Positions 23,866-51,684 of a stretch of 64,000 bases of DNA are shown in pieces (the stretch's first letter is position 1; the number at the start of each line of letters is the position of its first letter). The position numbers were made by a program, and so were the translations under genes. The DNA is taken from assembly GCA_036873755.1 (NCBI GenBank), contig JAVTVY010025399.1, positions 46,558-110,557 on the forward strand, read 5' to 3'. The DNA is from Hanleya hanleyi (taxonomy: Eukaryota; Mollusca; Polyplacophora; Lepidopleurida; Hanleyidae). The notes beneath the pieces are model-generated. The model saw only the letters and a program-made list of their open reading frames with translations, was not told where the DNA came from and searched no databases.

Positions 23866-23989
23866 CACAGTAAAAAATATAATTTTGATTAAGATTTTAT
23901 TTCCTGAAATATTCTCAAGTGATAAAAATTTTCATGAAATTCCTTGAAATATCTTGGTTTTTCTTGGAAATATTCTCAGGTTCTGCGAA

Positions 23990-24560
23990 CGTTGGGAAAA
24001 TTATTCTTATTTTATCTCACCACAAGAAAGTTGGGCTTATTTTAGTACTATTTTCTTAATCATGTAAGAATGAATTTCTACAATGAGATCAACTTTTCTT
24101 GACTGATAATAACTAAGATTACGTATAGAGAAAATCAATCTTATTTTGTCTTGCCATAAGAAATACGGGTTTATTTCGGGTTTATTTTAGAATTATTTTC
24201 TTAAGTATGAGAATCCATTTCTGGGATGAGATCAAGTTTTCTTGACTGATAATAACTAGTATTAATTACAGAGAAAACTATTCTCATTTTATCTTACCAC
24301 AAGAAATTTGGGCTTATCTTAGTATTATTTTCTTAATCGGGTAAGAATTCATTTCTAGAATGAGATCAAGATTTCTTGTCTGATAATAATTAAGATTAAG
24401 TACAGAGAAAATTAATCTTATTGTGTCTTATCATAAGAAATATGGGTTTATTTTAGAATTATGTTCTTAAGTATGTCACAATTCATCTATGAATGATAAA
24501 TAAGTTCTCACTTGTTCTTACCATATAAAATATGGATTTATTGTATTATTTTAAGTTATC
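23990..24560. repeat. Left subterminal repeat array of the EnSpm element
   Basis: About four units of 133-141 bp, each with ATGAGATCAA, TTTCTTGACTGATAATAACTA and ATAAGAAATATGGGTTTATT-type words (units near 24,083, 24,216 and 24,357). Such arrays near the ends of CACTA elements are binding sites for the transposition proteins in plants; the same role here is inferred. Confidence 0.75.
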
Positions 24561-25421
24561 GTTTCCACTTCTATATGCTGTCTTGCCCACTTATTCACTT
24601 TCTGAGAACCTTCAACATGCATGTTCAGTATGCTAATTGTATTGCATCAAAATGCAGATTTTTGTCCTGAACCCAGGTCCTTCCTCTGTGCAGCAGAGTT
24701 GATTTAAAACAAAAAGTCTGATGCATAAGGAGACTAAAGCACATGCAGTTGAGGGAGTAAACAGGATTTACCTGTAGTCGCCACAGTTAGCACATGACAT
24801 TGTCAGTGAAAATAAAATTAAAGAGTTCAAGAAATCATTTGCATTCCCCTAGCTTTATTTGCCAGTCAAATTAAATACATCTATTGGCGTTGCATTTCAT
24901 GCATACAAAAATATGTCCACGTTCTTAAAAGACAACTCAAATTTAACCTACATCATGTACATATGTATCTACAAATAATGTCTCTTGCATTTCATTAAAT
25001 TCAGACAAACTAAATTATTAGATTAAAAACAATATTTCTAGTCTTGTACTGTTCACACTTATTCTATATATATATCGACATGCACAAAACGTTTCTGAAC
25101 ATCCATATTACCATGATTACATTACAGATGTAATCACATTGTAAGAGTTAATTGCCATATTTACACAGTACCATCAATTTCTTCATTTTCTTAGTATACG
25201 GTATACCACGTGCAAATAAAATCTACATGCCTGAACAATAGTCTCTGAGCGTTGCCATGATGGTACCAAAATTTCAAAGTAATGAAAATTCTGAAATCAT
25301 ACTAACATCATGTACAGTAAACATGGTAAACATGTCAGTAGATAGATAACCTGGTTTCTGGTTTTCATTCAAATTTTCAGATTAAGCTGCATCTATATTT
25401 CGTTCCATGCATGGTCACAAC
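24561..25421. other. AT-rich sequence between left repeats and transposase
   Basis: No gene seen. The transposase frame ends in AAGTAAGTTG at 25,425-25,416, which contains both a stop and a good donor site (CAA|GTAAGT). A short further exon in this stretch is possible, but I could not identify one. Confidence 0.35.
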
Positions 25422-27579
25422 TTACTTGGATTCAAAATTCATAGAAATCAAATCTGTCATGTCGAAATCAGTTGGAATGAACAAATTACCTTGGTGATTA
25501 ACAGTACTGAACACATGGTAATCAATCAAGTTCCTGACATTGCACAGAATATTTGCTTCTGGTTGACTTGACTGTTCTACACAATAAGACTGAAGAATGT
25601 CATTGTATCCCGTTGTTCGAAACATCTGCAGTTCAAAATATATTTCTCTGCCACTGACAATAAAAATTCTGACAATCTTACCAAATTCTGGCAGAATTCC
25701 ATCCTCGGTACCCGCCGCAATGATAGCTCTAGTGCAGATATATTTGATACCGTGGTATATAATATGTGAAGCACTCGAAATCTGCAAACCTTCTTGTCTG
25801 ATCCCAAAGAATAATTGAAGTTTTTGCAAGAAATACTCTCTCAATTCTCCCAAAACTGGAGTCAGTGAACCTGGAATAAATTCTGATGCAAACATAGCAT
25901 GTAATTCATCACCATAGGAATCTAGAGCTTCAATGTTAGTTAGCTCCTCAGCTGCGGTTTTGGCTACATTTTTGAAGTTGTTCTTATTTTTAACAATTCC
26001 TTTCGGAATTTTATTCTTTCCTTCAAATCGCATACACGAGTAGCTGCTAGTGGGACCATGAAGTTTAATACATGATGGTATGTGTGTCAGATAATGTTGC
26101 TTGGGAATAATATTGCATTGTGGGAAACATTCAGTAAAACATTTTAGATGATTTTCTATAATATCCTTAAGATAGCTTAATGTTCCCAAAGATACAACTG
26201 GAGCCATGATAAGTCGAGTCATTTCTATCAATGATGCGCACAAAAGAAAAGGTTTATCATCAGTGTCCACGTTCAGTTTTGCCAACACAAACAAAATAAC
26301 TTTCAATAGCAGTTTCATCTGTGATGCATTTTGCTTCAGTCTGTTGTCTTCGGATCTGATGGTAGTTTGGTGAATTTCAGACGGTTTATCAGTCATATCT
26401 TGATAACCATATTCAAAGTGGTGAAGTTTGTAATTTAGATCACTCAGTGTAAATACACTTTGATTGATATAATGTTTCAAGATTTCTTTCACTTCATATT
26501 GTGCAAGACCTTCATATATAACATGCATAACATCCTGCGGTAGACAATTTGCAATATCAAAATGAGGAATTTCAACCAAACAACTTCTGCGAGTGATACC
26601 GTAACAGGTTGACAGATAACTTCTCATGTAGCTGGTGTCTGCAACTTCAATTTCATTACTCTTTCTAAGATATTCATCATGTGTTCTCTTTTGGAAATCG
26701 TTTTCACAGAAATTAATCTGCATTTGTTCAGGAGTGCAATAGCAACTTCTACATTTCTGACGTGCTAGTCCAACACCTTCTTTAAAGCCACCGATGAGAT
26801 GACTAGCTGGCGTATCTCCGAGCACAAGATATAGGCCTCCCATGAAATTTAACCTCCTCATCCTGTATTCGAAAATTATAACCAATCTGTAGTTTCTTTA
26901 AGTCCTCTATCACTGGCTGTAGAATGCGGTCAATGCCATATTTATCCAGATTATATTTCTCTGTCAGTGCTAGTAGACGAATATTACAAAGCTTTGAACG
27001 GTATCGTCGTGGTAAGTTGCCCAGAGAGTAATAAAAACAACTTAGTTTTCTTGATTTCGATCCCAAGGGACAGCATATCTCAATGTCATCATAATACAAC
27101 AGAATCGATAAAGAATAATCAGTCTGAAATAATGGGTGCTTCCTGTACAGTTGACCATCATAGATATCACATAAATAACCTGCAGTTCTGGGGCATTTCC
27201 TGGTGACCAGTTTGAAAACAATCTCATTTTGAAGGAATTGTTCCAAACTCTCCAAAATTGGTACATGATAGAAATGTTCATTGACTAAACTAATCTTCCG
27301 TTTCATTCCAAACCTGGTCTCCTTCAGAATATTTCCTATATTTATTTCACGAGGTGTGACACGTTTATACTTCTCTCGCATGAATTTGTCCTGTTGGTAA
27401 GCATTGCTGACTTCATTAAAAAGTAGGGGTGGATCACATTCATCCAAAATTTGAGAAACTTCATTACTCAATTCATCAAGTCCTTTGTCCTGTAGCTTGA
27501 TTTGTATCCTCTGTTTTAACACATCTATGGATTGTTGAACAACATTTTGGGACCCAGATATAAGCGATGTGAGCGCTCC
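25422..27579 (-). pseudogene. EnSpm-type transposase, catalytic exon
   Basis: The exon opens at 27,579 after a TTTTTTTAACAG acceptor, in phase with the upstream exon. It encodes about 710 residues: a helical N-part, then LGDTPASHLIGGF, a Cys motif (ARQKCRSCYC), ITRRSCLVEIPHFDIANCLP, QDVMHVIYEG, IPKQHYLTHIP and MRFEGKNKIPKG. The D of GDTPASH, the D of QDVMH and the E of RFEGK are the likely DDE set of metazoan EnSpm transposases. An extra G near 26,840 (in CATGGGAGG) shifts the frame between KFHG and LYLVLGDTP. With the LINE in the first coding exon, this transposase should be inactive unless supplied from elsewhere. Confidence 0.8.
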
Positions 27580-28198
27580 CTGTTAAAAAAACAACATTAA
27601 AATCATATACTAGTATAGGCCATGCCATCTAACGTAGGTAAATAAATACGAGGTTAGGTGAATGTATACACACCGTAAAAGAACTACACAGATTATATTT
27701 AACTACAAGAGGTGTTGTTTTCGCGAGGATTTGGCTTCCTAAAATTGGCAAACTATAATACAGCTAGGCTATGCGAGAAATGTTTCGCGTTACATGCCCG
27801 AAGCACAATATATATGCTGAAAACCCAGAATAATTTCAAAACACTGACTCGGAGCCTTATAATTATTGAATAACAGGGCTGTAAAGTAGTGCATTTATGC
27901 AAATTCGTTATTTCTTTGTAAATATATGGAGATCGACCAGACAAGGTCCAAAATAACGAGTACATGTATTCCTTATAGAAAGCTCCTTGTTCTCGTCTAT
28001 CTTAATATATTCATACGAAAAATAAGACTAAAATAGTAAATATAATGATTTTGTATAATAGCCATTACTTTATACAGCTCTGTTATTTGAGAATTTTGTC
28101 CAGGTTCAAATGTCTTCTGAATTTCTCAGGTACAGTGCTTCACAAACAATGGAGGGGGTGGCATGTTTCGAAGATAATGAATAGACGGTGAATTTTAC
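27580..28198 (-). other. Intron of the transposase gene
   Basis: Bounded by donor CAG|GTAAAA (last exon base 28,199) and acceptor AACAG (exon resumes at 27,579). No feature seen inside. Confidence 0.65.
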
Positions 28199-28248
28199 CT
28201 GATTGAGATGATGTCGATGTTTCATGTGTAAGATGAATTTGGAAGAGG
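28199..28248 (-). pseudogene. EnSpm transposase, 3' end of the first coding exon
   Basis: Encodes SSSKFILHMKHRHHLNQ and ends at a GTAAAA donor. This is the continuation of the exon at 34,841-34,388, displaced 6.1 kb by the LINE. The bases 28,238-28,248 are the left copy of the LINE target duplication. Confidence 0.75.
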
Positions 28249-28377
28249 AGAGAGAGAGAGAATTAGGGTTTAACGTCGCATTCAGCAATATTTCAGCTAT
28301 ATAGCGACGATCAAACAAAATTCTAAGTAATCAATTCAAAAACTCGGTAAACTAATGCGTTAAAACAGGTACAAACA

Positions 28378-31300
28378 TTAAAATTTGTACAACAAACCAA
28401 TCTCTCTCAAATAACCTAAAATACAATCCTCTTTCACTCTGCTAAAAAGATCCTCCAGCGTAGCCGCTCGATAAAAAGTATCTCTTACAGTCTTAAAATC
28501 TATGCAGTCTATGAGAATATGTTTCACCGTGAGATCTTCATGGCAAGGTATACACCTTGGAATCGGCTCCTGTTTTAGTAAATATTCATGAGTAAATCGT
28601 GTGTGACCGATCCTACATCGTCTAATCATGGCCTGGTCGAAACGTTTATGACTGTTCAGGTGAGTATAACCAACCGTTTTTTTGAACTCGTGAAGTTTGT
28701 TATTATCCATAGTATCCCATAAAGACTGAAACAGCTTTCTTACATAAGCGCAGATAGATGGTCTGAAATAGCTGTATGGTATTCCAACAGGGTCAACTTC
28801 TTCATCTAGAGCTGCCTTAGCCAATGTATCAGCTTCAGTGTTGCCTTTGATGTCCACGTGACTAGGCACCCAACAAAACACAATATCTATCTGTTGATCA
28901 AATCTGGTGTCATATAATTGTAGAATTTCCAAGATGGTGGGATGAGTGGAATTTCCATTTTTAATTGCTTTAAGGCATGACAGTGAATCTGAGAATATGA
29001 CATATTTTTTCCTTCTAGTGGATCCAATACCTTCTAAAGCTGATAATAGAGCTTTTGCTTCTGCAGTAAATATGGAACTTTTACCTGGCAGTCGATACGT
29101 TTTAGTTTTGGAACTAAAGATAGTAGCACATGCTACTCTCTCACCATCTTTAGAACCATCGGTATAAATAGCCTGATGTGAACTGTATTTCTCTCTCAAT
29201 AGACCGAATTCTTGTGTATACACGAGCTGGCTCGTGTCTGCCTTTTTATATTTAGTCAGTGAAATATCTACCTCTGGCGTGGCTAACTGCCATGGTGGAG
29301 TTGGCAAGAGCTCGTTAGGTAAAATCTGACTAACTTTAATACCAGCTGCTACAAGGTGTGGTTTCATACGGATTCCAAGAGGTGGAATACTCGAGGATTT
29401 TTGCGAATATAAATCTGCGTACTCGGGGTTGAAAACACAGATATATGCAGGATTTGAGTGGTTCGAACGCAGTTTTGTGATATATTGCAGCGATAATTTA
29501 ATTCTCCGAAGTTCTAAAGGAAATTCATCCGCTTCCACATACAAGCTTTCTTTGGGTGATGTTCTGAACGCACCGAGGCAAAGCCTTAGTTCTTGATGGA
29601 GAATAGGATCTAGCTTTGCCACGTTTGACTTGCTTGCACCATTGTAAACAATAGAACCATAATCGAGTTTGGAACGAACAAGCGATCGATATAAATGAAC
29701 GAGAGTTTGCTGATCTGTCCCCCACTTATAGCTGGCAACGACTTTCAACAAATCTAGAGCTTTCGTGCATTTGGCTTTTAAGCAATTTATATGTGATTTG
29801 AATGTTAGTCGTTGATCAAACAATATGCCTAGAAATTTGACCTCTTTTACCACTTTGATTTCAGTTCCATCTAAGGTAAGTACTGGATCTTCGTGCTGGA
29901 AATATTTTCTGCAAAAGTGTATACAATTTGTCTTTGTTCTGAAGAATTTGAAACCATTTTCTAGACACCATTTCTGAATTCTGTGTAGACAAAGTTGTAA
30001 TGTTCTCTCAATATTGTGTATGCTTTTCCCACTACACGATATATTGAAATCGTCTACAAAAAGTGAGCCATCAATTGAATTATTCAGAACTGCAGCCAAG
30101 CTGTTGATCTTGATACTAAACAGAGTAGTAGACAAACTACTGCCCTGTGGAACACCCTGGTCTTGATCAAAACGATCAGACATAGTTGTACCCAAACGAA
30201 TTTGAAATTGTCTATCATTCAAAAAGTTGAAAATAAAAACGGGTAAACGACCTTTTAATCCCATCTTTTGAAGATCTTTAAGAATCCCGTATTTCCATGT
30301 AGTATCGTAGGCTTTTTCTAAATCAAAAAAGATAGAAACCACATGTTCGTTCTTGGCGAAAGCATTCTTAACATACGAATCTAATCTGACTAAATGATCA
30401 ATGGTACTTCTATTTTTTCGGAAACCAGCTTGAATATCAGTGAGTTTCTTTTCAGTTTCCAGGTACCAAATAAGGCGATCATTTATCATGCGTTCCATGG
30501 TTTTGCAGACACAACTTGTCAGTGAAATCGGACGATAATTACCAGGGTCTGTATGGTCACGACCCGGCTTCGGTACTGGTATAACTATAGCATTGTGCCA
30601 GGACGGAGGAAATTCTTCTCTATACCAAAGTCTATTGAATATACGTAATAGGATTTCTAGAGATGATTCGGGTAGATGTTTCAAAAGCTGATAATGAATA
30701 TTATCAGGGCCTGCAGCAGAATCATGAGCTTTCGTGAGAGAAGCATGAAGTTCTTCAATTGTAAACGAAGCGTTATAGCCTTCATGGTTACCGGAAGTGA
30801 ATTTAATTTCCTTTTTCTCTTCTCTTTTTTGGAAACTTTGAAATTTAGGTACATAATTTTCTGATGAAGAGTTTTTGGCAATTGTTTCTCCTAATTTATT
30901 TGCAATTTCTACTTTGTCAGTAATCACCTGATTTCCATCGTTGAGATGATGAACGCTGGAGCTTTTACCTTTTATTCTTTGGATCATATTCCAAACTTTT
31001 GTTATTGGAGTATGAGTATTTATCTTAGAAACATAATTTCTCCAAGAATCACGTTTATTCTGTTTCATGGTTCTACGAGCTTTAGCTCTTGTAACTCTGA
31101 GATCTTTCAAATTTTCAGGATTAGGATGTCGGCGGAAATATCGTTCAGCCTTCTTCCTACATTTTCTTGCTTCTTTACAGTCATCATTAAACCAAGGTTT
31201 CTTAATATGTGCAACTCCTGAAGATGTGGGAATGGTTTGGTTGGCAATTTCTATCAACATATCTGAGAATAGCTGTATAGGATCTGAAGCATCAGCGAAG

Positions 31301-32127
31301 GAGACTGATTGTAGTTTTTGTGAACAAAGCTTTTCAAACTCGGGCCAGTTTGCTTTCTTGAAATTAAACCTTGTGAAATGTGGGTCATCAGCTGAATGAA
31401 CAGCTTTTAGGACAGTGGGAAAGTGATCACTTCCACAAAGGTCATCATGAACAGAAGAAAATTCTTCAAGAATAGGAAGGTCGCAAAGTGAGATATCCAA
31501 TGCTGAATAGGTTCCATGAGCCGAGGACAAATGTGTATAAGAACCATCATTAAAAATACACAACGAATTATTTCATATAAAATTTTCGAGAATTTTACCT
31601 TTACAATTGTCTTCATTATCCCAGAGGATGTTACGACCGTTAAAATCACCCATCAATAAACAAGGTTTCGGGAGCTTATCGTAAAGATCTTGAAGTTCAT
31701 TTAGCCGGAGACTACCAGAAGAAGGTATGTACAACGTGCATAATGTGAAAACAGAATTCAAGGTAATACGAACTGCTACAGCTTGTAAATCTGTCACTAA
31801 ATCAACAGGACTGTGTAACACACCCATTTTAACCAATATTGAGGAACCGCCAGTAGCTTTTCCATTTTCGTCTAAAGCGTAGGAATGATAAGGTGTGTAT
31901 TGGCGAAATTTAAATTTATCTTTATCTGCTTTCTTCAGAAAGGTCTCGTTGAGACAAAAAGCTGATGGTTCATAATCTTGAGTTAATAATTGGAGTTCAT
32001 TTAAATTTGGCCAAACTCCTCTGCAATTCCACTGAACGATAGTTGGTGGCTGAGCCATCTTCAGTCCGTATATAGAAATAAAACACAAAGCTGCCCAAGC
32101 CAATATATATAAGGTTAGCTTAGCCAT
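28378..32127 (-). pseudogene. LINE ORF2: endonuclease, reverse transcriptase, RNase H
   Basis: About 1,250 codons from ATG 32,127 to the stop at 28,378, with one in-frame TGA at 31,573-31,575, most likely a mutated CGA codon. Apurinic-type endonuclease: QWNCRGVWPN, CLNETFL, MGDFNGRNILW. Reverse transcriptase: PVPKPGRDHTDPGNYRPISL, ASVAGFRKNRS-like region QAGFRKNRS, GVPQGSSLS and catalytic LFVDDFN. RNase H: AIYTDGSKDG, TAEAKALLSALE, FSDSLSCLKAI, WVPSHVDIKGNTEAD. A C-terminal motif CIPCHEDLTVKHILIDC follows. The start overlaps the ORF1 stop as TAATG, which suggests re-initiation after ORF1. The presence of RNase H places it in the I/Nimb-like part of the LINE tree. Confidence 0.9.
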
Positions 32128-33595
32128 TATGTACGTTTTATTTTGATTAATTCTTTTTTAAATTTCTTTTCTTTTTTCCTTTGTTCTCTCCTGTCTTTTT
32201 GAATTTCCTTCTTACAAACTTCTTTCTGTCTCTCTTGTCCCAACAAGTCCTTAGACCTTTGGTTCAAGGAAGTCTCGCCTATTAGCGGGCGATCGTTACA
32301 CTCCTGATACTCCTCATCAGACAGAATGAGTGTATCACTGCTAGGAGTGGGATTAGCATCGACCACCTCAGGCCCCCCGCCGATATCCATTGCATTCTCT
32401 TCATTCTTATTCGAGATAGCTTCATTACTACCAGACTGCTGACTACTTTCTTTTTCTGAGAACTCCTTCATTACTTCCTCGTTTGGTGTGAAGTTAACAC
32501 CTACACCGGAGTGAATAGGATTAATGGAGGAATCCACAGACTGCACAAGTGCATTCTGACCCGAAACACTACCAGTATCCGGTAAGTTGTCTCCCTTGAA
32601 TTCAACTTCCGAAGTTAATACTACAACACTTTCAGTTTTATCAGAAATCGACTTCTGATCACCTGACTTCTGCTCACCTGCCTTTACTTCTACATCATCG
32701 CAAACCTCACTCTCACCGACATCTTCATCATTGCAAACCTCACTATCACCGTCATGTTCATCTTCCAAACCACTACCTACCTCCATCTCGTCACCGAGAG
32801 CCTCGTAGTGGTTTGAGGTTTTCTCTAAGCTCTCAGCGGCAACTATCTCCTGATGACGTTTGATAGGTTTGCCATCAGGGCCTACAGTCTTCCACAGGTC
32901 TACAGCGCTAAGTCCTCTTCGGACTTCCGTGGGCGGAGCAGAGCGAGGACCAGAGGAACCACCCTTTCTGCCGTTAGCTACGGTATCTCCAGAAACCTGT
33001 TTGGCTTTTGGACAGGTTTTTTAAAGATGTCCTTCCTGATGACAAATCAGGCATTTATTTTTCAAAGGACACTTCCAGTTCATGTGATTTTCTGATCCAC
33101 AAGTATAACATGTTTTTACTTGGCCGTTATACCATACAGGAAGTCTCATACCTCCAATCAAAATAGAAGAAGGAAGATCACGTTTGAATTTCGTCATCCA
33201 AATTCTTCGAACTCCCGTTTCAAACTGTCTATCAAATGAGTAGAACTCCTTTTGTAAAGAAAGAACATCCCCATAAAACTCAAAAGCACTTTTGATTTCA
33301 GAATCTGGGAAATCGCATGGTCCTTTCATTTTTACCAGCAATTTCCCTGGATCAATTTCCTCAAAATAGCCACGTTGATCTCCAACGCGAATACCTTCCA
33401 GCACTAGGCGAGCTTTGGTATTCTCATTTGCTACTGTGAGGTTCCACAAGGTATTTGATACCTGTACTAGACCTTTAAGAATTTTCGGTCCTGATCCAAC
33501 AGTGTCTTTTAATGCGTGATATATATCGGCCGGATCTGCTCTCTCTAGACCGTGAAGTTTTAGGCTCAATGACCTATTAAACTTGCTAAATGCCA
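32127..33595 (-). pseudogene. LINE ORF1 (gag-like nucleic-acid binding protein)
   Basis: About 489 codons from ATG at 33,595 (MAFSKFNRSLSLKLHGLERA). It has an RRM-like middle and two CCHC knuckles (CYTCGSENHMNWKC and CLICHQEGHL...KTC). An in-frame TAA at 33,021-33,023 falls inside the second knuckle. After it come an acidic tail with many Asp/Glu and a Lys/Arg-rich end. Its stop overlaps the ORF2 start. This protein coats the element RNA in I-type LINEs. Confidence 0.85.
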
Positions 33596-34387
33596 TAGTA
33601 AAAAAAAAAAAAAAAATCAAAGTCCACAAGGGAATCTTAATACAAACTACAAATAGCGACACACACAAACCTCAGTAGTGTGTCTCCACACAGAGTAAAC
33701 ATCGCCTACCCCCCTGAGGGAGCCCCACTCTAAAGGTGAAGGTGAAAACTATACAAGCAATACAATAATACACTATCTCTGAACCTTGTCTCGGCCGAAC
33801 AATAGCCCAGTTCTAAACCGGGTCCGTTGCTAGGTGATACCGAGGAACAAAAGAACAGAGAACAAAGGCTAGCGCACAGCTGTACACTCAGGGCTAAGCC
33901 TACAATGCACAGCAATATAACTTCGGTATGTTACATGTATCCAACCTACCTCGATTCACACTAAACTTATGTGCAAATCGACCTACGTCAAACCGAACGA
34001 AAAACGAACCAACTTCAAACTAGATCAAGTCAACAAGGATATATATATACAACAGCAAAATTCGAAATATTTACAGACCGCGAACAAACAGAGGCGAGGG
34101 AGACAGAACAAAACCCACCGACCCTCTCGGTCACAAAGACCGAGACGGTAGTAATGGTAGGTCCTTGCCTTCCCAAACCAGGCCAAACTGACTAAGTCAG
34201 AAAACCGCCCTGAACAGCAAAAACCGAGAAATAATTCTAAACTTTCACCACAGGTATTTGTCAAAAGTATTCACAAAATATATTACACAGAAATCAGAGC
34301 TAATATCAGCTGAAATACGCAGAAATAGACAAATTTCTCAGAGCGAAGTGAAAACACGTCCGACTCCCAATCTCTCTACATCCGGGC
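33596..34387 (-). mobile_element. LINE 5' leader
   Basis: Untranslated start of the LINE, with an A-run (16 A on the plus strand, 33,600-33,616) next to the ORF1 ATG. A diverged second copy is at 22,600-23,264. It should contain an internal promoter, but I see no motif that proves it. Confidence 0.7.
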
Positions 34388-34841
34388 CTTGGGAAGAGGA
34401 TGACTGAAGCCGTTCATCAGCTGACCAAAAATCTCTCCTTGATAATGCCACACGCTCTGCAGCTGAAAGGTGATTCTGCCTCAGTTCTGCAGCCTCGTTA
34501 TTTTCTGCAGTATCAGTCTGTTCTGCAAACGAAGTTCGGTCAACATCAGTTTGTGCAGTGGGTTCTATGTCTTCTTCATCTGCATGTAAAGACATTGGCC
34601 TGCCAACCACTTGTCGGATCTGTACAACCTCACGATTTTCGTAGAAGTGTTGATGATGTTTCCGGACATGTTTGTAGAAGGAATGATATACCGTAAAGGC
34701 ACGGGAACATTCCTCTATACCACAGCTTATGTGAAAATTGGGAGAATTGCTGTGGACTTGGTAAATGTGTGTCATCAAACCACTTAAGGTGATTGCCAAA
34801 AATGTCAGGCAGATGGCACAATGCCATGTCCACTTCGCCAT
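34388..34841 (-). pseudogene. EnSpm transposase, first coding exon with C2H2 fingers
   Basis: From ATG at 34,841 (MAKWTWHCAICLTF). An acceptor TTATTACAG just upstream (exon would begin near 34,859) implies a further non-coding 5' exon. The exon has two finger-like units: CAICLTF with H-x3-H, and CGIEECSRAFTVYHSFYKHV with an H-x4-H end. A low-complexity acidic and Gln/Ser-rich region follows. N-terminal fingers of this kind are seen on metazoan EnSpm transposases and probably bind the element ends. The LINE cuts the exon at 34,387. Confidence 0.75.
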
Positions 34842-34859
34842 GCAGCTTGGGTTTTTCCT

Positions 34860-35982
34860 GTAATAAATAATAGACAGTCATGTAAATTGATTACGGTACA
34901 TGTGTCGTCCGATGTCGCATTTAATAAAAGCTACATTGTAGTCCTGTATCTGGTGAATACCATTTTATAAAATTCACTAGGTTGTCGACCTACATCTTGC
35001 TTGTCGAATGCGAGTAAAAATACAAAAATGAGCCATAAAACTGTTTTACTGCACCTGAAATCCTAAAGCGGATACTACCTTTACGCATATAGGATTATAT
35101 GGTTAACACAAATGTTGATTTGACCATATTATTATTTCTACAAAAGCTCAAATACTTCATGAAACAGGAACGGCTGGAGAAAAACACAACTATGATATGC
35201 CTATGAATAATAAAGTATTCATTAAAATTAAATCCTATCTGCTCCCCCATTTGGATATGTCGCTTGCATGATCTAACCGGCTTGCAATAACGCGAGTGTC
35301 AACCAATCCCGAGAGCTCTTCATAGTGCTTTGAAGGGAACATAATGGTAAGTGTTTTCTGGTTGGCTCAGCCGAATCACACGCCAAGCTGTCGGGGAATC
35401 TTCTGATGTTGCCGCCCTCCCGCCATGTTGGCACCATAATGCGGGGTACATGTAGAATTATGAACTGGTCCTTGCCATAAACCTTGGGTTAAAGCAGAGA
35501 CCATGACCCTATCCCCCCTCCCCGACTGCAAGTAAAGTAGTTAAAATGCCGCCGTGATGTCATAAGAATATTAAATATTCATGAGCTGGGAAAGAATATT
35601 AAATATTCATGAGCTGGGAACTCTGAACCACACCAAATTTAATTCAAATCAGTAAGATCCTACATAGCGACATGTACGATTGGAGAGCATTGATAGGATA
35701 TTAATTTATTAAGAGTGTGACAAACTAGAAAGAGAGCAGCAAAATATGTTTCCTTATTTCATGGACAATAAAATTATATTAAACTAGAAAAATAAAACAA
35801 TCGCCCAAGACTGACAATAGTTTATACGGCGATCAATATTCAAGAACACAATATATTTTTTCTTGTTTAATAAGAAATAAATCTTCAGAAAACTCATAGG
35901 AACTGGTTTAAGAAAAAAAATCTTACGTGCCCACGTGATGTACACGTAGGAGTTGCCCGGATATAGATGCAGACGACCCGCA
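34860..35982. promoter_or_regulatory. Intergenic region between two divergent genes, probable bidirectional promoter
   Basis: About 1.1 kb separates the transposase start from the SAM-domain gene start. Seen here are CCAAT boxes (CAACCAATCC near 35,305 and inverted ATTGG-like words), GCCGCCCTCCCGCCATGTT near 35,412, and a tandem pair GAATATTAAATATTCATGAG at about 35,566 and 35,594. Sharing of one control region by both genes is an inference from the layout. Confidence 0.45.
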
Positions 35983-41900: not shown

Positions 41901-44900
41901 AACACTTTTTATAGTAGGATACTTCCATTAATTTAATATTCTGGTATTTAATACATGATGGTAAATGATAATTATTTCTGTGCATAGTGTTTGGCATTTG
42001 TGCCAACCACCGTCAATGCGTAGTGTGTCCATCGCATATCCTACGACCTTTTCCGCAAGATATCTTGATAACTGATGAACCCAATGTCATCAAACTTGAG
42101 TGGAAGCTTACGAAGTTATTAATATTCAGGGGGAAATGTCACTTTCCTTTATACGTTTCAGATCCCGAATTAATGCATCTTCATTACGAGAAGCTAAAAT
42201 CCAAACTGCAGGAAAAGAAACCAAATCCCAAAGTGGTGTGTCAGTTGCTTGACGTTGAATTTCCTGCCAGGCGCTGTTTAGTTGAGTCTCTGTTAACATC
42301 CAAGGACAGGCAACAGAAAATCATCGACAAGTATCCATGCTTCTTGAAAGCAGTTCATGTAAGTTGAAGAACTTGCAAGTTTTCCAAATTAATATCATGT
42401 GTACATCTTGAGGTGAGTCTGAAGCCTTTTAAAATGACTGGCCTTGATATATTTTATCAGTCAAATGATGTAATTTCAGTCCTTATTAACCTCTTACATG
42501 TCCTGAATTTTCATCGTTAAATTATTTGAATTTAAGTGACCAAAACATCTATGAAGCCATGGCCACTAAACTGAGAGCTCTCTTGAAAACCAAGACCAAA
42601 TACCAAATCTTGTCTCAGTTCCTCTTGGTTTAGCATTGTTGAATTGTCCTCATAAATTTCACCTTTCAAAGCGAGGTTTTTCTTGGTTTTGATACTGATT
42701 TGTACTTGCTGATAAGAATGTATTCTTTCATTTCAGCTTTTGGATGAAATAAGAAGATATGTAGACCGAAACAATGCCCACTATTTAAGTGAATGTGGAG
42801 TACGCTTGGACAAAGTCTTCCAACAACTATTTCTCTACGGTATAACAGTCTCTTTTCACCAAGTGTGGTGACAGGTGGGTATATTTTCACTTCTGCACTT
42901 TGGGATGTTCCAAATAAAGTACATGGGAGGGCAATCTATTTTATTGGTATTTGGGTGGCATGTGATTTACCATGTATAAACATTTATGGGAAGATTGGAT
43001 GAATGGTATATGAGTGGCACTAATTAGTAAACAAGCTGCCTTTCCCCAACCCCATTTCTGAAACATCTCTTACAGATAGTTGTGTGTTTAAACAAAATAT
43101 TGCTTGTGCGCTATTAGATAACCATCATATCAGCTAAACATTGCCTACTTCCAACCAGTCAGCTCATACCAGGTACATTTTGCTGGAATTGCCCTGAGCT
43201 TGTGGCACTGGTGCATTATATATTTGTGACAGAACAAATTCTGCATACCCCACATACCAGCCATCGGAAAATGCAGTCAGACTGGTTGAGCAAAAACCTG
43301 AATTAGATCATCAATATTTGTTTGAATCAGACTTCAGTTTCTATTTCATACCCATGTTTTGCAGGTGATTGTGAAAAGGGCAAGCACATTCTTCAGAACA
43401 TTACAGAAATGTTCCCCGGATCAAGGAAGACCAAGGAGAAGCTACTTATCTGTATTGAGGTAAAAAATAAATTGGTCTTGAGTCTTTTTGCATATAAAGT
43501 TATTCATTCCAGCCTGCAACAAGTTTTATCTGTCCATTGTAATGTGCGCAATGTCACCAGAGTAGATCAACATCTTTTTCAAATTTTTGATAGATCTACA
43601 CATGGAAACTTAAATACATGATGTATTGGGGCCATTGTGATCACATGCCTTTATCAACACAATCTTTGGAGAACTTATTGCCATACAATTACTAAACGTG
43701 GTAGAGTTTCGTATCTAGCCGCAAATCAGAAGCCTATTGAAAAGGCTTTGTTGAATAATAGTTTAGTTATGTCCCTTAATTGAACAAGATCAGTCTATAT
43801 AAGTTTTTGCTATTGTATTTATTTTGGTGCATTGGTCACATGGAAGGGTAGCTTTCACAGTTATGAACTCCATTTTTATACGCCCGCCAAAAGGCGGACG
43901 TATTATGTGATGGCGGTTTCCGTCCGTCTGTCCGTCCCTCGTGTCCGGTCTATATCTGGGACAGTTTTCTATCTACAGTTCTAATTTTTGGTGAGTGGAT
44001 ACCCTACGGGGAGACGATGTGTCGCGTACCAAAATGAAGGTCAAGGTCAGAGGTCAAAGGTCACTGGCCTAAAAAACAGGAAATCACTGAAGTGTTCGTG
44101 TCCGGTCTATATCTGTGAATGTTTTCTATCCACAGTTGCAATTTTTTATGAGTGGATACGCTAGGTGGAGACGATGTGTCGCGTACCAAAATTGAGGTCA
44201 AGGTCAGAGGTCAAAGGTCACTTGCCTAAAATCAGGAAATCATTGATCATTGATAGTTTTCTATCTACAGTTCTAATTTTTGGTGAGTGGATGCCCTATG
44301 GGGGAACTGTGTTGCATACAAAATGTAGGTCAAGGTCAGAGGTCAAAGGTCAGTGTCCCGGAAAAATCAGGGAATCATTAAAAATTTCTAACGAGGTGTC
44401 TCATACCAAAATATAGGTCAAGGTTGAAGGTCAAAGGTCACTGACCCCAAAATCAGGAAATTATTAAAAATAACTTTTGTTTTGTCAGTAGATACATGAG
44501 GGGGACACGATGTGTCACATACCAAAATGTAGGTCAAGGCCGAATGTCAAGGTCACTGTGACCCCCAAAATCATGAAATTGTTAAAAATCAAGATTTCTT
44601 GTGTCCATTGATACACATCCTCGCGAGCCAGTGTATCGATCGATTTGTTAGGATCGATACACTGGCTTGGTTAGTTACCCATATGAGTTCTGGATATAAA
44701 TAGATCAAGAGGTTTCCTCTAAATCAACCCAATCAGTGAATGCGCTAAGCCAGTTGATTAGGCCAATCCGCTGCTAGGTATGAGATATGACAGGATTGAA
44801 TTTCATTGCGGACTCAACTGCTTTGATGTCAAGTTGAAATCAACATCGGAAGTCAAAGCAAAAACTGCAAGCTTGGGATACCGACATGCTTATTCAAAAC

Positions 44901-47900
44901 AAGCGCAGTGGATGAAATGTACGAGATTGTATAATGGAGGTGTCGACTCAAGAACTCATTCGAAAGACCAAAAATGTCAAGGTAAACCCTCTCCAAGGAT
45001 TTAGGATTACCTGGACTTGTGAAGATTTTTGAGATATTGAGGGAAGACAATGTGTCGAGAACCAAAATGTAGGTCAAGATTAAAGGTCAAGGTCACTGTG
45101 ACCCAAAAATTTGAAATCATTAAAAATAGCCTTTTTTGTGCCAGTAGATACATTAGAGGGACATACCAAAATGTGGGTCAAAGATCAAGGTCACTGTGAC
45201 CCCAAACTCAAGAAATCATTAAAAGTCACATTTTCATATACCTGTCGAAGACGAGATCATGTAATGCGATGTTGCATTCTGTCCATTCACCCATTAACAT
45301 TAGTTGTCCATGCGATATCTCTAGTTTCAAGGTATGGATTGATACCAAACTTCAGGTACAGCTTACTCGCATTGCAAAGAGAGATCAATTTGTGAAGTTT
45401 AGCTGCCCATATGTGTTAGGTTGGAATATTCAGACTTGTCTCCCCTACATGTATATGGCATTTGTCCTGTGGAGTTGTCTCTCATGTTTGATACATGTAA
45501 GAAATGGCTACATTTACTTAAATTGTTGTGAAATAAAAACCATACATTTACTAATTTAATGGGGAGAGGGGTCCTTCATGAACTTTATACCTGTTTATTA
45601 ACTCAAGAACAAAGGTTTACTTCATCACTTTCTTCACATCCTTCTACCTTCATGGAAAATTTTCTCGCCTGAAAGGAATCCATTTGAAAGAAAACTACTA
45701 TTTTCTTGTGTTTGACTAATGTCGATTTCAGTGTGGGATATGTGAGCTCTCGACCTTTGTTACAAGGTCACCTAGTTACCAAGAGTTCAGCCCATTTTAG
45801 ATGTGATGTGTGTAACATTCTCAGAAGCATAAAATCGTAGACCTTACTCTGGATTGCTAGCTACTAATTCGGATCAAGGCCATTAACAAACTAGAAATTC
45901 AGACCAGTGTAATTCCAGATATACGGGCGTATATTGAAGCCCCTTGGGCTCTTGTTATAATTATTTATGGAGCCCTAATGTCTCCTCACCCAAGCCTCTC
46001 TCAGCACATATACTACAGAAAATAGACAGACACTTGAAAAAGTAAATGCTATCAGCTCTTTTTAAGGCCATAAAAAGTTAATTGTTTCTCGAGTACATTT
46101 TGTTCTTCATGCATGCAGGCAGACAGGTGTTTATTTCATTTGTATTTTCCTTCTATTTAAATATTCATTGTTTTAGGCCACACAAAGTTGTAAATTTGGT
46201 TCTCTGGCACTCTTTATTCGAAAACCATGTGGGCAGGCGGCCATTTTTTTTTTCTATTTTTTTTTTCACATTCCTTGGTAAAAACAAGTTGTGTTTCAGG
46301 AATACATGTGAAAGAACTTGTATTTGCTGGTGGAGAAATTTATAACATTTCATTTATGTTCTTCATCTTCAGTCATATATTTTTTTGACCTCTTGTATGC
46401 TCTCTCGCGAATATACTTCAGACAGGCTATTCAACTACACAAGGATGACCATTACAAAAACAACAACACTTCAATAGCGAGAATGTATTTGTCTACAAAA
46501 AAAACATTTGAAATGCCGGAATTCGACACTTTGCAGTTTCCTACTTTTCAGAGAACGATAGCTTTCAGTATTTTTACTGTTGTGAATTTTTTTTTTTTTT
46601 TTTTTGCTCCAAGATTTGCAAAAAAGGTTTTGACATGCAAAGGTTACGTACCATGCGTGGTGCCCCGAGAACCAACTTTACAACTTTGTATGGCCTTAAC
46701 GAGTGATAAATATGCAAAAGAAATTCAGTCGCCGGGTCCGGGATACATTGGTCGAATTTTAAATTTTTACCGAATTTTGGTCGAAGGGTATTGTCATCGT
46801 CAGGTACGTTTGTCCGTCGACTCGTCCGTCTGTCCATCACACCTTTCTCGTTACCAAGATATCATTAGAACGACTTATCCTAGGCACACCAAACTTGCAG
46901 CGCACATCCATATGCTCGTGACCCAGAACCCTATTGAATCTGGACCTGATCGGTTTGAAACTTTGGCGGCCATCTTTAATTTATGCGAAACCATTAATCT
47001 CGGGTACCATTTCGCTGTTCAGTGTGAAACTTGGTATAGACTATCGATGCATCAAGAAACTTCAAAGGAATGACCAAACCAGTTCTCTGATTCAGTGGAA
47101 ACCTTGGTGGCCATCTTTAATTCATGCAAAATCTTTAATGATATATATCTCTGATACTATTTAAGTGTTCTATACGAAACTTGGTATACAGCATTGATGT
47201 ATCAAGAGACCTGCAATGAATAACCACATCAGTGCCTTTGAGTGGCGGGAAGAATGAGCGGCCATCTTTAATTTATGCAAAATCATTAATGATCTCTATC
47301 TCTGGTGATGTTCAAATGCTCGATGTAAAATTTGGTATATATCATCAATGCATCAAGAGATGTGTAATGAATACCGGTTTATCTGATTGGACGGAAACCT
47401 TAGGGGCCATTTCTAATTGCGAAATTGTTGATAATCTTGTATATATGTCACTTGACTGCTTGGTGTTCCTGAAATCTTGGTTCAAATTCAATACATTATG
47501 AATGGCTGGCGACCAGAGTCGAGGGGTTTTCAGATGCACAGCTTCGTATTTTTAAAATGTGAAAAGTGTCTTGACTTATCACGAGAGAAAATGTGGATGT
47601 AGCAAAGCAACAAGCTTGAGAAATAATTACTTTTGTATGGTCTAATACAACTGCATTGTTGAGTTCAACCTGTTAGATGGTTTTCACAATTAATCAAGTA
47701 TAAATTACTTGTTGATTGTTTACAGAAAATATTTGTTTTTATCTTGTAGTCTGATGAAGACACTGAGCAAGTCGTCAAGCGAGCAAAGGAGCCTATCATC
47801 ATAGCAACACCAAGCAACCTGGTGATTGCAAGCTCTGGGCAAGTTATGAGCATGCTCGCTAAATCCAGTTTCTGTAGAGCCGTATTCGTTCTTCTCGGTA

Positions 47901-48052
47901 TTCATTATACCTTTATGATTCCATATCCCAAGGGCACGGAAACCGCACTGTTAGTACTGCAATCAGAAGTGCTGCAAGATGAGATCCACCCGAAAGATGT
48001 GACCAAAGATTACAAAACATACATGAGAAAATTCAAAGAATTCTGTGGCTAG
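35983..48052 (+). CDS. SAM-domain protein, SAMD3-like, eight exons, intact
   Basis: Exons: 35,983-36,109; 38,266-38,372; 39,049-39,360; 40,249-40,492; 42,162-42,358; 42,737-42,839; 43,365-43,459; 47,750-48,052. Every intron is GT-AG, all phases agree, and the sum is 1,488 nt for 495 residues. Residues about 15-78 form a SAM-like helical domain (RRHLAYKFDEDIADIFLG, INGETFLSLNRDDVSVLFP). About 79-182 is an alpha/beta region with PTPQELLEMAKTMVRRFPVL. A nuclear-localisation-like PSPKRARKQKE sits near 206, then an acidic Ser-rich linker. The C-terminal half (about 263-495: DPELMHLHYEKLKSKL, KYPCFLKAVH, HILQNITEMFPG, IIIATPSNLVIAS, FVLLGIHYTFMIPYP) resembles proteins named SAMD3-like in fish and invertebrates. 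Function unknown. It lies wholly inside the EnSpm element, divergent from the transposase. Confidence 0.8.
36110..38265 (+). other. Intron 1 of the SAM-domain gene
   Basis: Donor GTGAGT, acceptor CTGCAG. A 145-residue frame at 36,251 has no family features and sits inside this intron; I do not call it. Otherwise AT-rich. Confidence 0.6.
38373..40248 (+). other. Introns 2 and 3 of the SAM-domain gene
   Basis: Intron 2 is 38,373-39,048 (GTATGT to TTCAG), intron 3 is 39,361-40,248 (GTGAGT to TTGTAG), with exon 3 between. Plain AT-rich sequence without repeats that I can name. Confidence 0.6.
40850..41022 (+). repeat. SINE-like piece with CACT-rich tail, in intron 4
   Basis: Three short related units (GGTCTCGGGTGTTGAAAGGA, GGTTTCCGGGTGTGAAAAGG and the one before) precede GATATGACTGAGATAGTGTT, then GCGATGTTAAACC and CACTCACTCACTCACT. 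This tail is typical of short retroposons in gastropods. Intron 4 spans 40,493-42,161 and shows a C-run at about 41,786 but nothing else. Confidence 0.6.
42359..43364 (+). other. Introns 5 and 6 of the SAM-domain gene
   Basis: Intron 5 is 42,359-42,736 and intron 6 is 42,840-43,364. For intron 6 I chose the donor GTATAA at 42,840, because only it keeps the frame with the next exon. The alternative GTGGGT at 42,875 would put a TGA in frame. Confidence 0.55.
43878..45931. mobile_element. Inverted-repeat element, ATACGCCCG ends, with internal repeats (intron 7)
   Basis: Starts ATACGCCCG at 43,878 and ends CGGGCGTAT at 45,931. Inside, a GTAGGTCAAGGTCAGAGGTC-type unit recurs at least seven times between about 44,030 and 45,200 (ACCAAAATGTAGGTCAAG...GGTCACTGTGACC). 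The start AAAAGGCGGACGTATTATG is common on molluscan repeats. Non-autonomous; frames inside are repeat read-through. Confidence 0.7.
44627..44666. repeat. Perfect 15-bp hairpin inside the inverted-repeat element
   Basis: GCCAGTGTATCGATC pairs exactly with GATCGATACACTGGC around a 10-bp loop. It may be the core of another small fold-back insertion. Confidence 0.75.
46175..46696. mobile_element. MITE-like element, 30-bp terminal inverted repeats (intron 7)
   Basis: AGGCCACACAAAGTTGTAAA and the following TTTGGTTCTC at 46,175-46,204 pair with 46,667-46,696 with two mismatches. The 522-bp body has T-rich runs and no gene. Confidence 0.7.
46800..47450 (+). repeat. About 150-bp tandem repeat (intron 7)
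   Basis: The word GGCCATCTTTAATT occurs at about 46,969, 47,110 and 47,262, followed each time by ATGC(G/A)AAA and, after a gap, by GAAACTTGGTATA. It begins after TTTGTCCGTCGACTCGTCCG. It is similar in style to the element at 48.4 kb. Confidence 0.65.
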
Positions 48053-48391
48053 TAAACTTGCCTCCTGTTCCTGTCCAGTGATGAGGTGTTAATGTTTCAT
48101 TACATTTTAAATTTCTGTTCCATGTTTAACTTTTAGGAGTTCAATCATTCTTTCTATGCCAGTTGTTTGTTCATATTCTGAAGTAGTTTGACCGTTTGGT
48201 GTGGTGCGGCTGCCAGATTGCAGGTCTTTATATTACATGTTGTTCACACCGTTTAAGGGTGTGCCCAAATTAAATATGCCTAAATTATATGAAGTTTGGA
48301 GAGAGAAAGAATTCTAAAAATGTACAAAATATGTAGTTTTTTGGCAAGTATTCAACAGGAAATTAATAACTGGTTACTTTTTTAACTTTTT
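48053..48391 (+). other. 3' flank of the SAM-domain gene
   Basis: Follows the TAG stop. No strong AATAAA was noticed. The word AAGGGTGTGCCCAAATTAA at 48,257 recurs at 49,907, on the far side of the next inverted-repeat element. Confidence 0.4.
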
Positions 48392-49810
48392 AGCTCATCT
48401 GGGCCGAAGGCCCGATGGGCTAATGTCATGGACTGATTGTCTGTCATCCATCGTCCATCGTGTGTCAACATCTTCTTCTCTGAAACCGCTTGACCGATTA
48501 AGCTGAAACTTGGCATGCATGTTCCCCCCAATGAGTACACCAGAATTTGTTCATGCGGTGTCGATATGATTTTGAATATGGCTGCCATGGCAGCCATCTT
48601 GGATTTCCCCATGAAACTTGGTTATCGCGATTCCTCAGGAACTACTGCATGGAACTTCCTCAAATTTGGTACACAGGTCTCCCTTTGAGTCTAGTTGTGC
48701 TAGATACCTTTTGTGGTCTGATTCAAAAATCCAATATTGCCACCAGGCGGCCATCTTGGATTTTCCCATGAAACATTGTTATCACGATTTCTCATGAACT
48801 GCTGAATGAATCTTTCTTAAATTTGGTAGACAGGTTCCCCTTGGGATCTAGTCGTAAAAGATATACCTTTTTTGCTTCGATTTAAAAATCCAATATGTCC
48901 ACCAGGCGGCCATCTTGGATTTCCCCCATGAAACATTGTTATCGCGATTTCTCAGGAACTGGTGAATGGATCTTCCTCAAATTTGTTAGACAGGTTCCCC
49001 TTAGACTCTAGTTGTACAAGATACCGTTTTTGCCACCAGGCGCCCATCTTGGATTTCCCCATGAAACATTGTTATCGTGATTTCTCAGGAAGTACTGCAT
49101 GAATCTTTCTCAAATTTGGTACACAGGTTCCCCTTGGAGTCTACTTGTACATGATACCTTTTCGGTCCAATACGAAAATCCAATATGGCTACTAGGTTGC
49201 CATCTTGGATTTCCCCATGAAATTTTGTTATCGCAATTTTTCAGGAACCACTTCATTGATCTTTCTCAAGTTTGGTACACAGGTTCCTCTTTGGGTCTAG
49301 TTGTGCAAGATACCTTTTGTCGTCTGATTTGAAAATCCAATATGGCGACCAGGCGGCCAGATTTCCCTATGAAACTTCATCGTGATTTCTCTGGAAGTAC
49401 TGCATGGTTCTTTCTCAAATTTGGTACACAGGTTCCCCTTGGGGTCTAATTGTGCAAGATACCTTTTCTGGTCCGATTCGAAAATCCAATAAGGCCACCA
49501 GGGGGCCATCTTGAATTTTCACATGAAATTTCGTTATCGTGAATTCCTGGGAAATTACTGCATGGATCTTTGTCAAATTGGGTACACAGGTTTACCTTGT
49601 GGTCCGGTGGTGCAAGATACCTTTTTTTGGTCCATATCGAAAATCCAATATGGTCGCATCTTGGATTTCTCGTGAAACTTTGTTATGAAATCTCACGAAA
49701 TTACTGCATGAATCATTGCGTGTGTTCAGTGGGGGACAACACAAGTTAGAGACTCATCTATTGAAGTTCTTTAGTAAAAAATTCTTAAAGCTACTTTTGC
49801 CAGATGAGCT
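48392..49810. mobile_element. Inverted-repeat element, AGCTCATCTGG ends, tandem body
   Basis: AGCTCATCTGG at 48,392 is mirrored by CCAGATGAGCT at 49,800-49,810. The body repeats a unit of 140-160 bp about eight times (CAGGCGGCCATCTTGGATTT, CAAATTTGGTACACAGGTTC, GATACCTTTT). Known style of molluscan non-autonomous element; no coding capacity. Confidence 0.75.
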
Positions 49811-50059
49811 ACAGTGCCGTGGCACTATCTTTCAGCAATTTGCATCCTGTTATTAATCCATCTTACATGTATTTTTATTTTGGGCACATTAGCGTAATCT
49901 AATTAAGGGTGTGCCCAAATTAACGTAATATAAAGCCCTGGATTATGGGTAACCCCCAGTCTTGTCGGACTATAATTTGTTTTGTATAATACTTATATTT
50001 TTGTACGCCTTTTGACTTCATATGTTATGTACCTGGCCATCTAATAACATGCTATTTGG

Positions 50060-51360
50060 CAAGTCAAGGTTCTTACTTTGTAAGACTAGCCGGAGAATTA
50101 TTTTCCTACTCCACATTTTTACCCAGTTTGTAGAATAAGATAATAATTTCCAGAATTCTCCGATCTGGGATTAGCCTGACTATTATTTTTGTACTTGATT
50201 TTATCTAAATTTGTAGAATAAGAATAAACCTTTCAGGATTCTCCGATCCGAGACTAGCCTGAGAATTATTGTCTTGTTCTACAAACTGATTTCAAATCGG
50301 GTGTAAGGAAAAATACTCGGGCCAGTCTCAGATGGAAGAATTCTGAGAAGTTTTTTCTCATTCTACAATTGAGATAAAATCTGAAGTAGGAAAGTAATCC
50401 TCAAGCTAGTTCCAGATGTGAGAATTCTGAGAAGTTATTTCTTATTCTACAAATTAGGATAAAATCTGAAGTAAGAGAATAATTCTCAAGCTAGTCCCAG
50501 ATGGGAGAATTCCGAGAATTTTTTTCTTATTCTACAAATTGAGACAAAATCTGAAATGAGAAAAAAATTCTCAGGCTAGTCCCAGATGGGAGAATTTTAA
50601 GAACTTTTTTCTTATTCTAAAAATTGAGATAAAATCTGAGGTAAGAAAATAATCCTCAAGCTAGTCCCAGATGGGAGAATTCTGAGAAGTTATTTCTTAT
50701 TCTACAAATTCAGATAAAATATAAAGTAAGTAAATAATTCTCAGGCTAGTCCCAGATGGGAGAATTCTGGGAAGTTTTTTCTCATTCTACAATTTGAGAT
50801 AAAATCTGAAGTAGGAAAGTAATCCTCAAGCTAGTTCCAATTGTGAGAATTCTGAGAAGTTATTTCTTATTCTACAAATTAGGATAAAATCTGAAGTAAG
50901 AGAATAATTCTCAAGCTAGTCCAGATGGGAGAATTCGAGAATTTTTTTCTTATTCTACAAATTGAGACAAAATCTGAAATGAGAAAAAAATTCTCAGGCT
51001 AGTCCCAGATGGGAGAATTTTAAGAACTTTTTGCTTATTCTACAAATTGAGATAAAATCTGAGGTAAGAAAATAATCCTCAAGCTAGTCCCAGATGGGAG
51101 AATTCTGAGAAGTTATTTCTTATTCTACAGATCAGGATAAAATCTAAATTTAGTAAATAATTCTCAGGCTAGTCCCAGATGGGAGAATTTTAAGAACTTT
51201 TTTCTTATTCTACAAATTCAGATAAAATATAAAGTAAGTAAATAATTCTCAGGCTAGTCCCAGATGGGAGAATTCTGAGAAGTTTTTTCTTTTTCTGCAA
51301 ATTGAGATAAAATCTGGAGAAAGAAAATAATTCTCAGATAGGAGAATTTTAAGAAAAATG
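50060..51360. repeat. Right subterminal repeat array of the EnSpm element
   Basis: About 15 units of 83-88 bp with CTAGTCCCAGATGGGAGAAT, TTCTTATTCTACAAATT and GATAAAATCTGAAGTAAG. The first three units (to about 50,290) are in the opposite orientation to the rest. From 51,361 to the terminal repeat the sequence is AT-rich with AAGAAAATTAATCTT words that also occur near the left end. Confidence 0.85.
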
Positions 51361-51684
51361 TTCTTAGTGCAGATTTGTTGTGGTTTGAAATGCAAAGTTT
51401 GATCATGAGAATTTTGATCTTATTCGAGAATAAATGACCTCTTCTTCAAGAAAATTAATCTTGTGTTGTTCCTTTTTTCTTAACTGGTTAAGATTCACAC
51501 GAAATTGTTAGATAAGAAATATTTCTCCAACTCAAGAAAAAATATCTTGAAAGGTAATGTGTAAGAGAATAAATCTTGGGCAAGTAAACCTTGGTTAAGA
51601 AAAATTATCTTGCCATTCTCCCAAGAAAAGACAAGAAAAGTCAAGTTTTTTTTTCTTATTCTATCAAGGTTGTTTTTTACTGTG

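Follow-up and report, generated by a model that had tools for sequence, protein, structure and literature searches.

A second gene under purifying selection, paired divergently with the transposase in an EnSpm/CACTA-like transposon of the mollusc Hanleya hanleyi

In plants, much work has been done on the second proteins encoded by CACTA-type transposons, and in Spm both products are spliced from one transcription unit. For plant Spm, PMC2613891 describes TNPA as recognising subterminal repeats and as being required together with TNPD, and gives an En-1 motif containing a TCTTA stretch. For transposases of EnSpm, Mirage, Chapaev, Transib and Plavaka, PMC12730594 gives the motifs C(2)C and H(3-4)H, which follow the second D and precede the E, and it describes fungal EnSpm/Plavaka elements that carry a second, non-transposase gene of the TET/JBP type. 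Here we analyse a stretch of 64,000 nucleotides from Hanleya hanleyi (GenBank assembly GCA_036873755.1, contig JAVTVY010025399.1, positions 46,558 to 110,557; hereafter the window, C20756 among the contigs named below), which holds a 27.8-kb transposon at 23866-51684 with a transposase gene and, divergent from it, an eight-exon second gene. We conclude that this second gene is almost certainly an integral, selected part of the transposon and not a one-off capture, because the divergent pairing recurs, the divergence of the second gene tracks that of the transposase and the second gene is constrained in old lineages.

The second gene lies on the plus strand, with GT-AG at every border and consistent phases. 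The first-pass annotation had read eight exons with agreeing splice sites and phases, back to back with the transposase, and the sequence confirms this; the protein, put there at 495 residues, has 553 codons. The exons are as follows.

35983 to 36109, plus strand: exon 1, first half of a SAM-like region (by eye)
38266 to 38372, plus strand: exon 2, second half of the SAM-like region (by eye)
39049 to 39360, plus strand: exon 3
40249 to 40492, plus strand: exon 4
41988 to 42358, plus strand: exon 5
42737 to 42839, plus strand: exon 6
43365 to 43459, plus strand: exon 7
47750 to 48052, plus strand: exon 8, with the stop codon

The transposase consists of three open reading frames (ORFs) on the minus strand.

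34338 to 34877, minus strand: first exon region, with a C2H2-like finger (Pfam E 0.043, below cut-off)
26803 to 27582, minus strand: middle ORF, with the first D (YYDD..PLGSK) and a splice acceptor at its 5′ border by eye
25422 to 26897, minus strand: 3′ ORF, with the second D, CxxC, HxxxH and E

Both proteins were searched for in the whole assembly (2.48 Gb, 52,793 contigs), the candidates scored being 87 of 379 for the transposase 3′ ORF, 147 of 246 for the middle ORF and 78 of 93 for the second protein. The transposase belongs to a large superfamily, with at least 90 matches to the 3′ ORF and at least 147 to the middle ORF. The second protein gave at least 52 exon-level matches in at least 19 contigs. 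Nine of these 19 also hold the transposase (C20756, C34405, C42252, C17735, C8399, C34657, C39641, C32681 and C3442), and in all nine the two genes are on opposite strands and divergent. The check that had been proposed on other copies was run: other elements carry the second gene too, with unchanged position and orientation relative to the transposase. A transposon that had inserted around a single host gene in the window, or formed a chimera with one, would be permitted by the window copy alone; it is refuted by the same divergent pair in the eight other contigs, and we give it practically no chance. The finding named beforehand as decisive for such a one-off event, copies that never contain the gene together with a single clean host locus, was looked for and the outcome went the other way.

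The copy on C34405 is colinear with the window inside the element, and its flanks have no colinear match. On C42252 we find exons 1 (three copies), 2, 3, 4, 6 and 8 in order, and on C17735 exons 2, 3, 4, 5, 6 and 8 in order, all with the same borders and with exon identities to the window of 42-68%. Exons 5 and 7 were not found in C42252, nor exons 1 and 7 in the part of the C17735 region searched. The three copies of exon 1 on C42252 (12412-14086) are in tandem at a spacing of ~0.8 kb. Viewed from the transposase, ten contigs have middle-ORF matches of at least 46% in at least one stretch (C20756, C42252, C10152, C34405, C17735, C34657, C51699, C8399, C39641 and C32681). Nine of these ten close relatives have the second gene, eight by assembly-wide match and C10152 by exons 1 and 2, which lie where they should (E between 0.0005 and 0.04 depending on query). 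In the next clade C3442 has the second gene; its sister C17919 is 95.7% identical in the transposase region, on a contig that starts too close to show a partner. Flanks were examined for three of the ten contigs holding the second gene alone (C3430, C5103 and C23062), and two of these have a short, correctly oriented transposase remnant at the position predicted for it: 23 residues at 74% in C3430 (E 1.3e-5) and 15 residues at 93% in C5103 (E 1.4e-4).

The comparison of second-gene with transposase divergence that had been suggested shows that the two match. Across eight elements (the window, C42252, C17735, C34405, C8399, C34657, C39641 and C3442, with C32681 left out), pairwise identity of the transposase correlates with that of exon 3 at r 0.93 over 28 pairs, a value reached by 0 of 5000 label permutations.

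Moreover, the second protein is under purifying selection between old lineages, and several young copies decay. Codon pairs were picked by hand, with stops and gaps dropped. In eight old pairs synonymous sites are saturated (proportion of synonymous differences, pS, 0.75-1.03), with a proportion of nonsynonymous differences (pN) of 0.26-0.37, and C34657-C8399 likewise has saturated synonymous sites at a nonsynonymous divergence (dN) of 0.264. Synonymous divergence (dS) is far above dN for window-C22593 in exon 8 (dS 0.518, dN 0.060), window-C4340 (0.638, 0.172), C17735-C10798 in exon 8 (1.411, 0.093) and C17735-C45259 (1.712, 0.093). For window-C34405, dS is 0.150 and dN 0.067 (410 codons, exons 1-5 and 7, broken codons dropped); the comparison of exon with intron identity for this pair (92.3% vs 89.9%) was too weak as evidence, and the codon analysis was used instead. 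Some young pairs show no constraint, namely C3430-C22822 (dS 0.075, dN 0.107), C3430-C5103 (0.091, 0.115) and C22822-C5103 (0.056, 0.099) in exon 3, and C12508-C22822 (0.067, 0.096) in exon 8. Others show some, namely C12508-C5103 (0.313, 0.119), C22822-C5103 (0.223, 0.070) and C10798-C45259 (0.209, 0.094) in exon 8, and C34657-C32681 (0.326, 0.221) and C34657-C39641 (0.309, 0.251) in exon 3. This pattern fits a transposon gene that is constrained as its lineage propagates and drifts once a copy has inserted, the drift half being drawn from few short exons.

These data bear on the possibility that the second gene is a captured host gene (transduplication) travelling as a neutral passenger. Transposons of the EnSpm/CACTA-type group can capture gene fragments, and the second gene is intron-rich like a host gene. 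However, it recurs in subfamilies whose proteins are ~55% identical and whose synonymous sites are saturated, its divergence tracks that of the transposase, and dN is far below dS between old lineages. Where the second gene stands alone, the exon examined carries a stop or frame break in six of ten contigs (C5103, C22593, C22822, C45259, C4340 and C33366). A passenger is therefore very unlikely. Of the two readings offered by the first-pass annotation, a two-protein system or a captured host gene, an integral, co-inherited two-gene element stands and capture is disfavoured; the TNPA-like role that goes with the former is a matter of inference.

Several observations nevertheless weigh against an integral second gene that serves its transposon. 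In the other four second-gene-alone contigs (C3430, C12508, C10798 and C23062) the exon examined has no stop or frame break, and a host copy may be among them, though C3430 carries the transposase remnant described above. The exon-8-like stretch of C23062 has no transposase near it within the 10 kb examined, and no second gene was found in C51699 within the 6.1 kb examined (best E 0.13). The 19 second-gene contigs include none of the more distant transposase contigs, the gene being absent there or diverged beyond detection, and 14 loci of other clades (56,796 bases) gave no credible second-gene match (best E 0.10), with a reach of ~1.5 kb beyond the transposase that makes this hardly a test. 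The window copy itself is probably not autonomous, because its transposase has a frame break. Lastly, no SAM family was found in the second protein by Pfam at E up to 10, and a PDB profile search of the SAM-like region found no SAM structure, returning 3 unrelated matches at E 0.24 or worse.

The C23062 stretch (32573-32869) has no stops, is 33% identical and may be a host-gene relative or one from another clade; the 10 kb upstream of it is largely filled by a ~509-bp repeat. With the C3442 protein as query no further clade was found, and the other matches, to residues 137-188, are a dispersed repeat. Scans of viral contigs yielded 3 pattern stretches for the second protein and 10 for the transposase, none of which was confirmed as a relative.

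The SAM domain claimed for the second protein was thus recognised neither by Pfam nor by PDB sequence searches. The second protein may be a real transposon protein whose N-terminus is another helical module, in which case the SAMD3 label would be wrong, and the null searches speak for this. On the other side, SAM domains are often missed by sequence searches, and the N-terminal 65 residues show a SAM-like pattern by eye that is conserved in C42252 and partly in C17735. We think a module other than SAM possible, if the less probable of the two. Structure models of exons 3 and 8 taken singly were poor (predicted local distance difference test scores, pLDDT, of 50.0 and 43.7), and the SAM-like region lies outside these models. 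A set of 30 PDB profile matches, nearly all to bromodomains at E 0.17 or worse, was taken as chance.

The unit at 23866-51684 is a real bounded transposon insertion of 27.8 kb. Perfect ends, a TG duplication, subterminal arrays and an in-frame empty site all bear out the unit as first delimited, and its boundaries are as follows.

23864 to 23865, strand not applicable: left target-site copy TG (flank reading)
23866 to 23877, plus strand: left 12-bp terminal inverted repeat, CACAGTAAAAAA (12-mer scan)
24031 to 24486, plus strand: left subterminal array of 134-bp units, TAAGAAA-rich
50259 to 51337, plus strand: right subterminal array of 85-bp units x 12.7, TAAGAAA/GAGAATT-rich
51673 to 51684, minus strand: right 12-bp terminal inverted repeat (12-mer scan)
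51685 to 51686, strand not applicable: right target-site copy TG (flank reading)

The 12-mer CACAGTAAAAAA is perfect on the plus strand at 23866-23877 and, inverted, on the minus strand at 51673-51684. With at most one mismatch the window holds four matches against 0.67 expected, a number reached by 2 of 100 shuffles; the remaining two, at 14664 and 33594, have one mismatch each, and that at 14664 lies inside what is by eye a retroelement-like coding sequence. Insertion with a 2-bp duplication is clear, because the flanks joined with a single TG read in frame, giving the stretch EVCHGPDCICSVCHRRLFRKGVVLC of the interrupted gene. We take this gene to be Helitron-like; Pfam gives DUF6570 alone, at E 0.096, in another frame and further downstream. 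Its coding sequence (23700-23865 and 51685-53030) has frame breaks of its own.

Ends of relatives were also recovered, with the proviso that similar 12-mers with 2-3 mismatches arise by chance in other loci. On C8399 the left end is CACAGTTAAAAATA at 20820. Two further 14-mers matching it lie in the 10 kb searched, at 37009 and 40673; we chose 34052-34065 as the right end, which has 3 mismatches to the left one over 14 positions, because it follows an AAGAA/TTCTT-rich stretch (17 occurrences in 33501-34000, with no other 500 bases holding more than 4) and is again flanked by TA. The C8399 element therefore probably spans 20820-34065 (13.2 kb), with both ends present and TA on both sides. C42252 has the right end CACAGTCAAAAA and C17735 the left end CACTGTTAAAAAATA (also read by eye as CACTGTTAAAAA); the opposite ends of these two were not found, at a contig start or in rearranged arrays. 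The C34405 copy lacks both terminal ends.

The end regions share a motif. Unbiased 6-mer counts took the place of a narrow-pattern palindrome scan, which had given few matches. The ends of four elements, 5371 bases in all, contain TAAGAA 85 times with both strands counted; dinucleotide shuffles give 14.2, and the density in the interiors of three of the four predicts 3.4. AAGAAA occurs 123 times in the end arrays against 29.2. Because the arrays are tandem, counts within one array are not independent, and the stronger point is the recurrence in four divergent elements, where TAAGAA is enriched in eight of eight end segments. As in TNPA-type systems, then, arrays of a short motif lie subterminally at both ends, and a second gene under selection is co-inherited with the transposase.

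The transposase was aligned over 10 rows from 9 proteins, the window protein entering as two pieces. D28, C49xxC52, H268xxxH272 and E292 (window ORF numbering) are near-invariant, and the upstream YDD..PLGSK is conserved wherever present; the assignment of the catalytic D and E among these residues is inferred. The protein has D, D and E, with C(2)C and H(3-4)H lying after the second D and before the E; the termini have the form 5′-CA..TG-3′ in the window (CACAGT...ACTGTG), at the left and probable right end of C8399, at the right end of C42252 and at the left end of C17735; and the duplication, of the 2-5 bp expected, is TG in the window and probably TA in C8399. These are hallmarks of the EnSpm/CACTA-Mirage-Chapaev(-Transib) clade, which includes fungal Plavaka and shares CA..TG ends, a 2-bp duplication and D-D-E with CxxC and HxxxH (PMC12730594). 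In contrast to that clade, the window's Pfam matches all fall below curated cut-offs (Plavaka E 0.014, DUF4218 E 0.064), and the ends are CACAGT with 2 bp and not CAC..GTG with 3. Transposase_21 (tnp2) matches three of seven relatives scanned (E 1.3e-4, 2.6e-4 and 0.046), all below its cut-off, the best reaching 21.7 bits against 28.6, and does not match the window ORFs; this cut-off is a profile threshold and not a structural feature. Since the duplication is 2 bp, we file the transposase at the level of the clade and not as strict CACTA. The label EnSpm/CACTA-type thus holds for the clade hallmarks, and fails for the strict CAC..GTG ends and 3-bp duplication.

The transposase had also been described as frameshifted and split by a LINE (long interspersed nuclear element). 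There is one frame break, the ORFs at 26803-27582 and 25422-26897 overlapping in different frames. The retroelement lies as follows.

28378 to 33671, minus strand: LINE-like retroelement with a 1064-codon reverse-transcriptase-like ORF (by eye) and a CCHC ORF

It sits between the zinc-finger ORF and the middle ORF. The LINE is probably intronic and need not break the gene, because the C34405 copy lacks it and matches to the two flanking ORFs lie 0.7 and 1.1 kb apart in two relatives. The contrast once drawn between a damaged transposase and an undamaged second gene is therefore uninformative, amounting to one frame break against none. The 1064-codon ORF has no stops, and the LINE-like element looks like a young insertion.

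How the two proteins would work together can be framed by analogy. The fuller reading is of a multi-subfamily EnSpm/CACTA-Mirage-Chapaev-type transposon with two divergent genes, one for a DDE transposase whose N-terminal part is zinc-finger-like and one, in eight exons, for a second protein that would be a TNPA-like cofactor; we put this at about an even chance. The second protein would attach to the TAAGAAA-rich subterminal arrays or assemble with itself on them, possibly acting through its SAM-like N-terminus, and so bound would bring the ends to the transposase, which would itself recognise the CACAGT ends. Plant Spm/En, with TNPD and TNPA, is alike in having a transposase, a second product and subterminal arrays that are asymmetric and carry a short AT-rich motif, and the En-1 TCTTA stretch (PMC2613891) resembles the TTTCTTA motif here. 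Unlike the single transcription unit of Spm, there are two divergent genes here, and the likeness drawn is one of layout and motif.

The main rival holds that the second gene is integral but acts on the host, as an anti-silencing or regulatory factor or a defence blocker, outside the cutting complex. VANC of Arabidopsis VANDAL elements is an anti-silencing factor and provides the model. Selection and co-inheritance fit this equally well, and the fungal TET/JBP dioxygenase genes, an epigenetic cargo, are carried in several lineages of the same clade (PMC12730594). However, the conserved short motif is concentrated in the end arrays, the usual place of transposition sites. Moreover, the fungal carriage, as described there, is patchy, goes back to more than one acquisition and involves a different protein, whereas the gene here tracks the transposase through the close clade. 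On balance a host-directed role seems unlikely, without being far-fetched.

Returning to the TNPA-like cofactor, a further extension would be an animal CACTA-like two-component system in which a SAM-like factor oligomerising on the TAAGAAA arrays evolved independently of TNPA, and from which scattered SAMD3-like genes, perhaps vertebrate SAMD3, descend. We rate this as rather improbable. Vertebrate SAMD3 is a candidate relative of the second protein and may have a similar domain order; the first-pass annotation also put forward SAMD3-like genes as multi-copy in fish and invertebrates, a conjecture here. A literature search combining SAMD3, transposon and transposase returned nothing, and no report of such a transposase and second-gene pair was found in titles and abstracts; Repbase lay outside this search and may hold a two-protein entry.

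Other features of these loci are recorded here. Exon 8 and the right array are separated by, among other sequence, a ~150-bp tandem repeat at 48575-49653, which may be dispersed in its own right and inflate the element. Elsewhere in the window are a DEAD helicase ORF in the element's flank (21946-22434, minus strand; Pfam DEAD 2.4e-15, RecQ-like by eye) and a 74-bp tandem array of ~12 units at 9133-10055. C30915 holds two identically scoring transposase matches 8 kb apart (47758-48579 and 55777-56598), a recent duplication or a nested element. Open frames of 800-900 codons are present at a number of the distant transposase loci, so several subfamilies may be recently active.

In summary, an animal lineage here has a second transposon gene that is under selection and has been inherited together with its transposase. 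Its defined ends, a common end motif and the partner pairs present in several subfamilies give a comparative basis for testing. Multi-copy genes of such a kind call for caution, since what is filed as a gene-family expansion may consist of transposon genes. If the SAMD3 link were true, a family annotated as host genes would gain a transposon origin.

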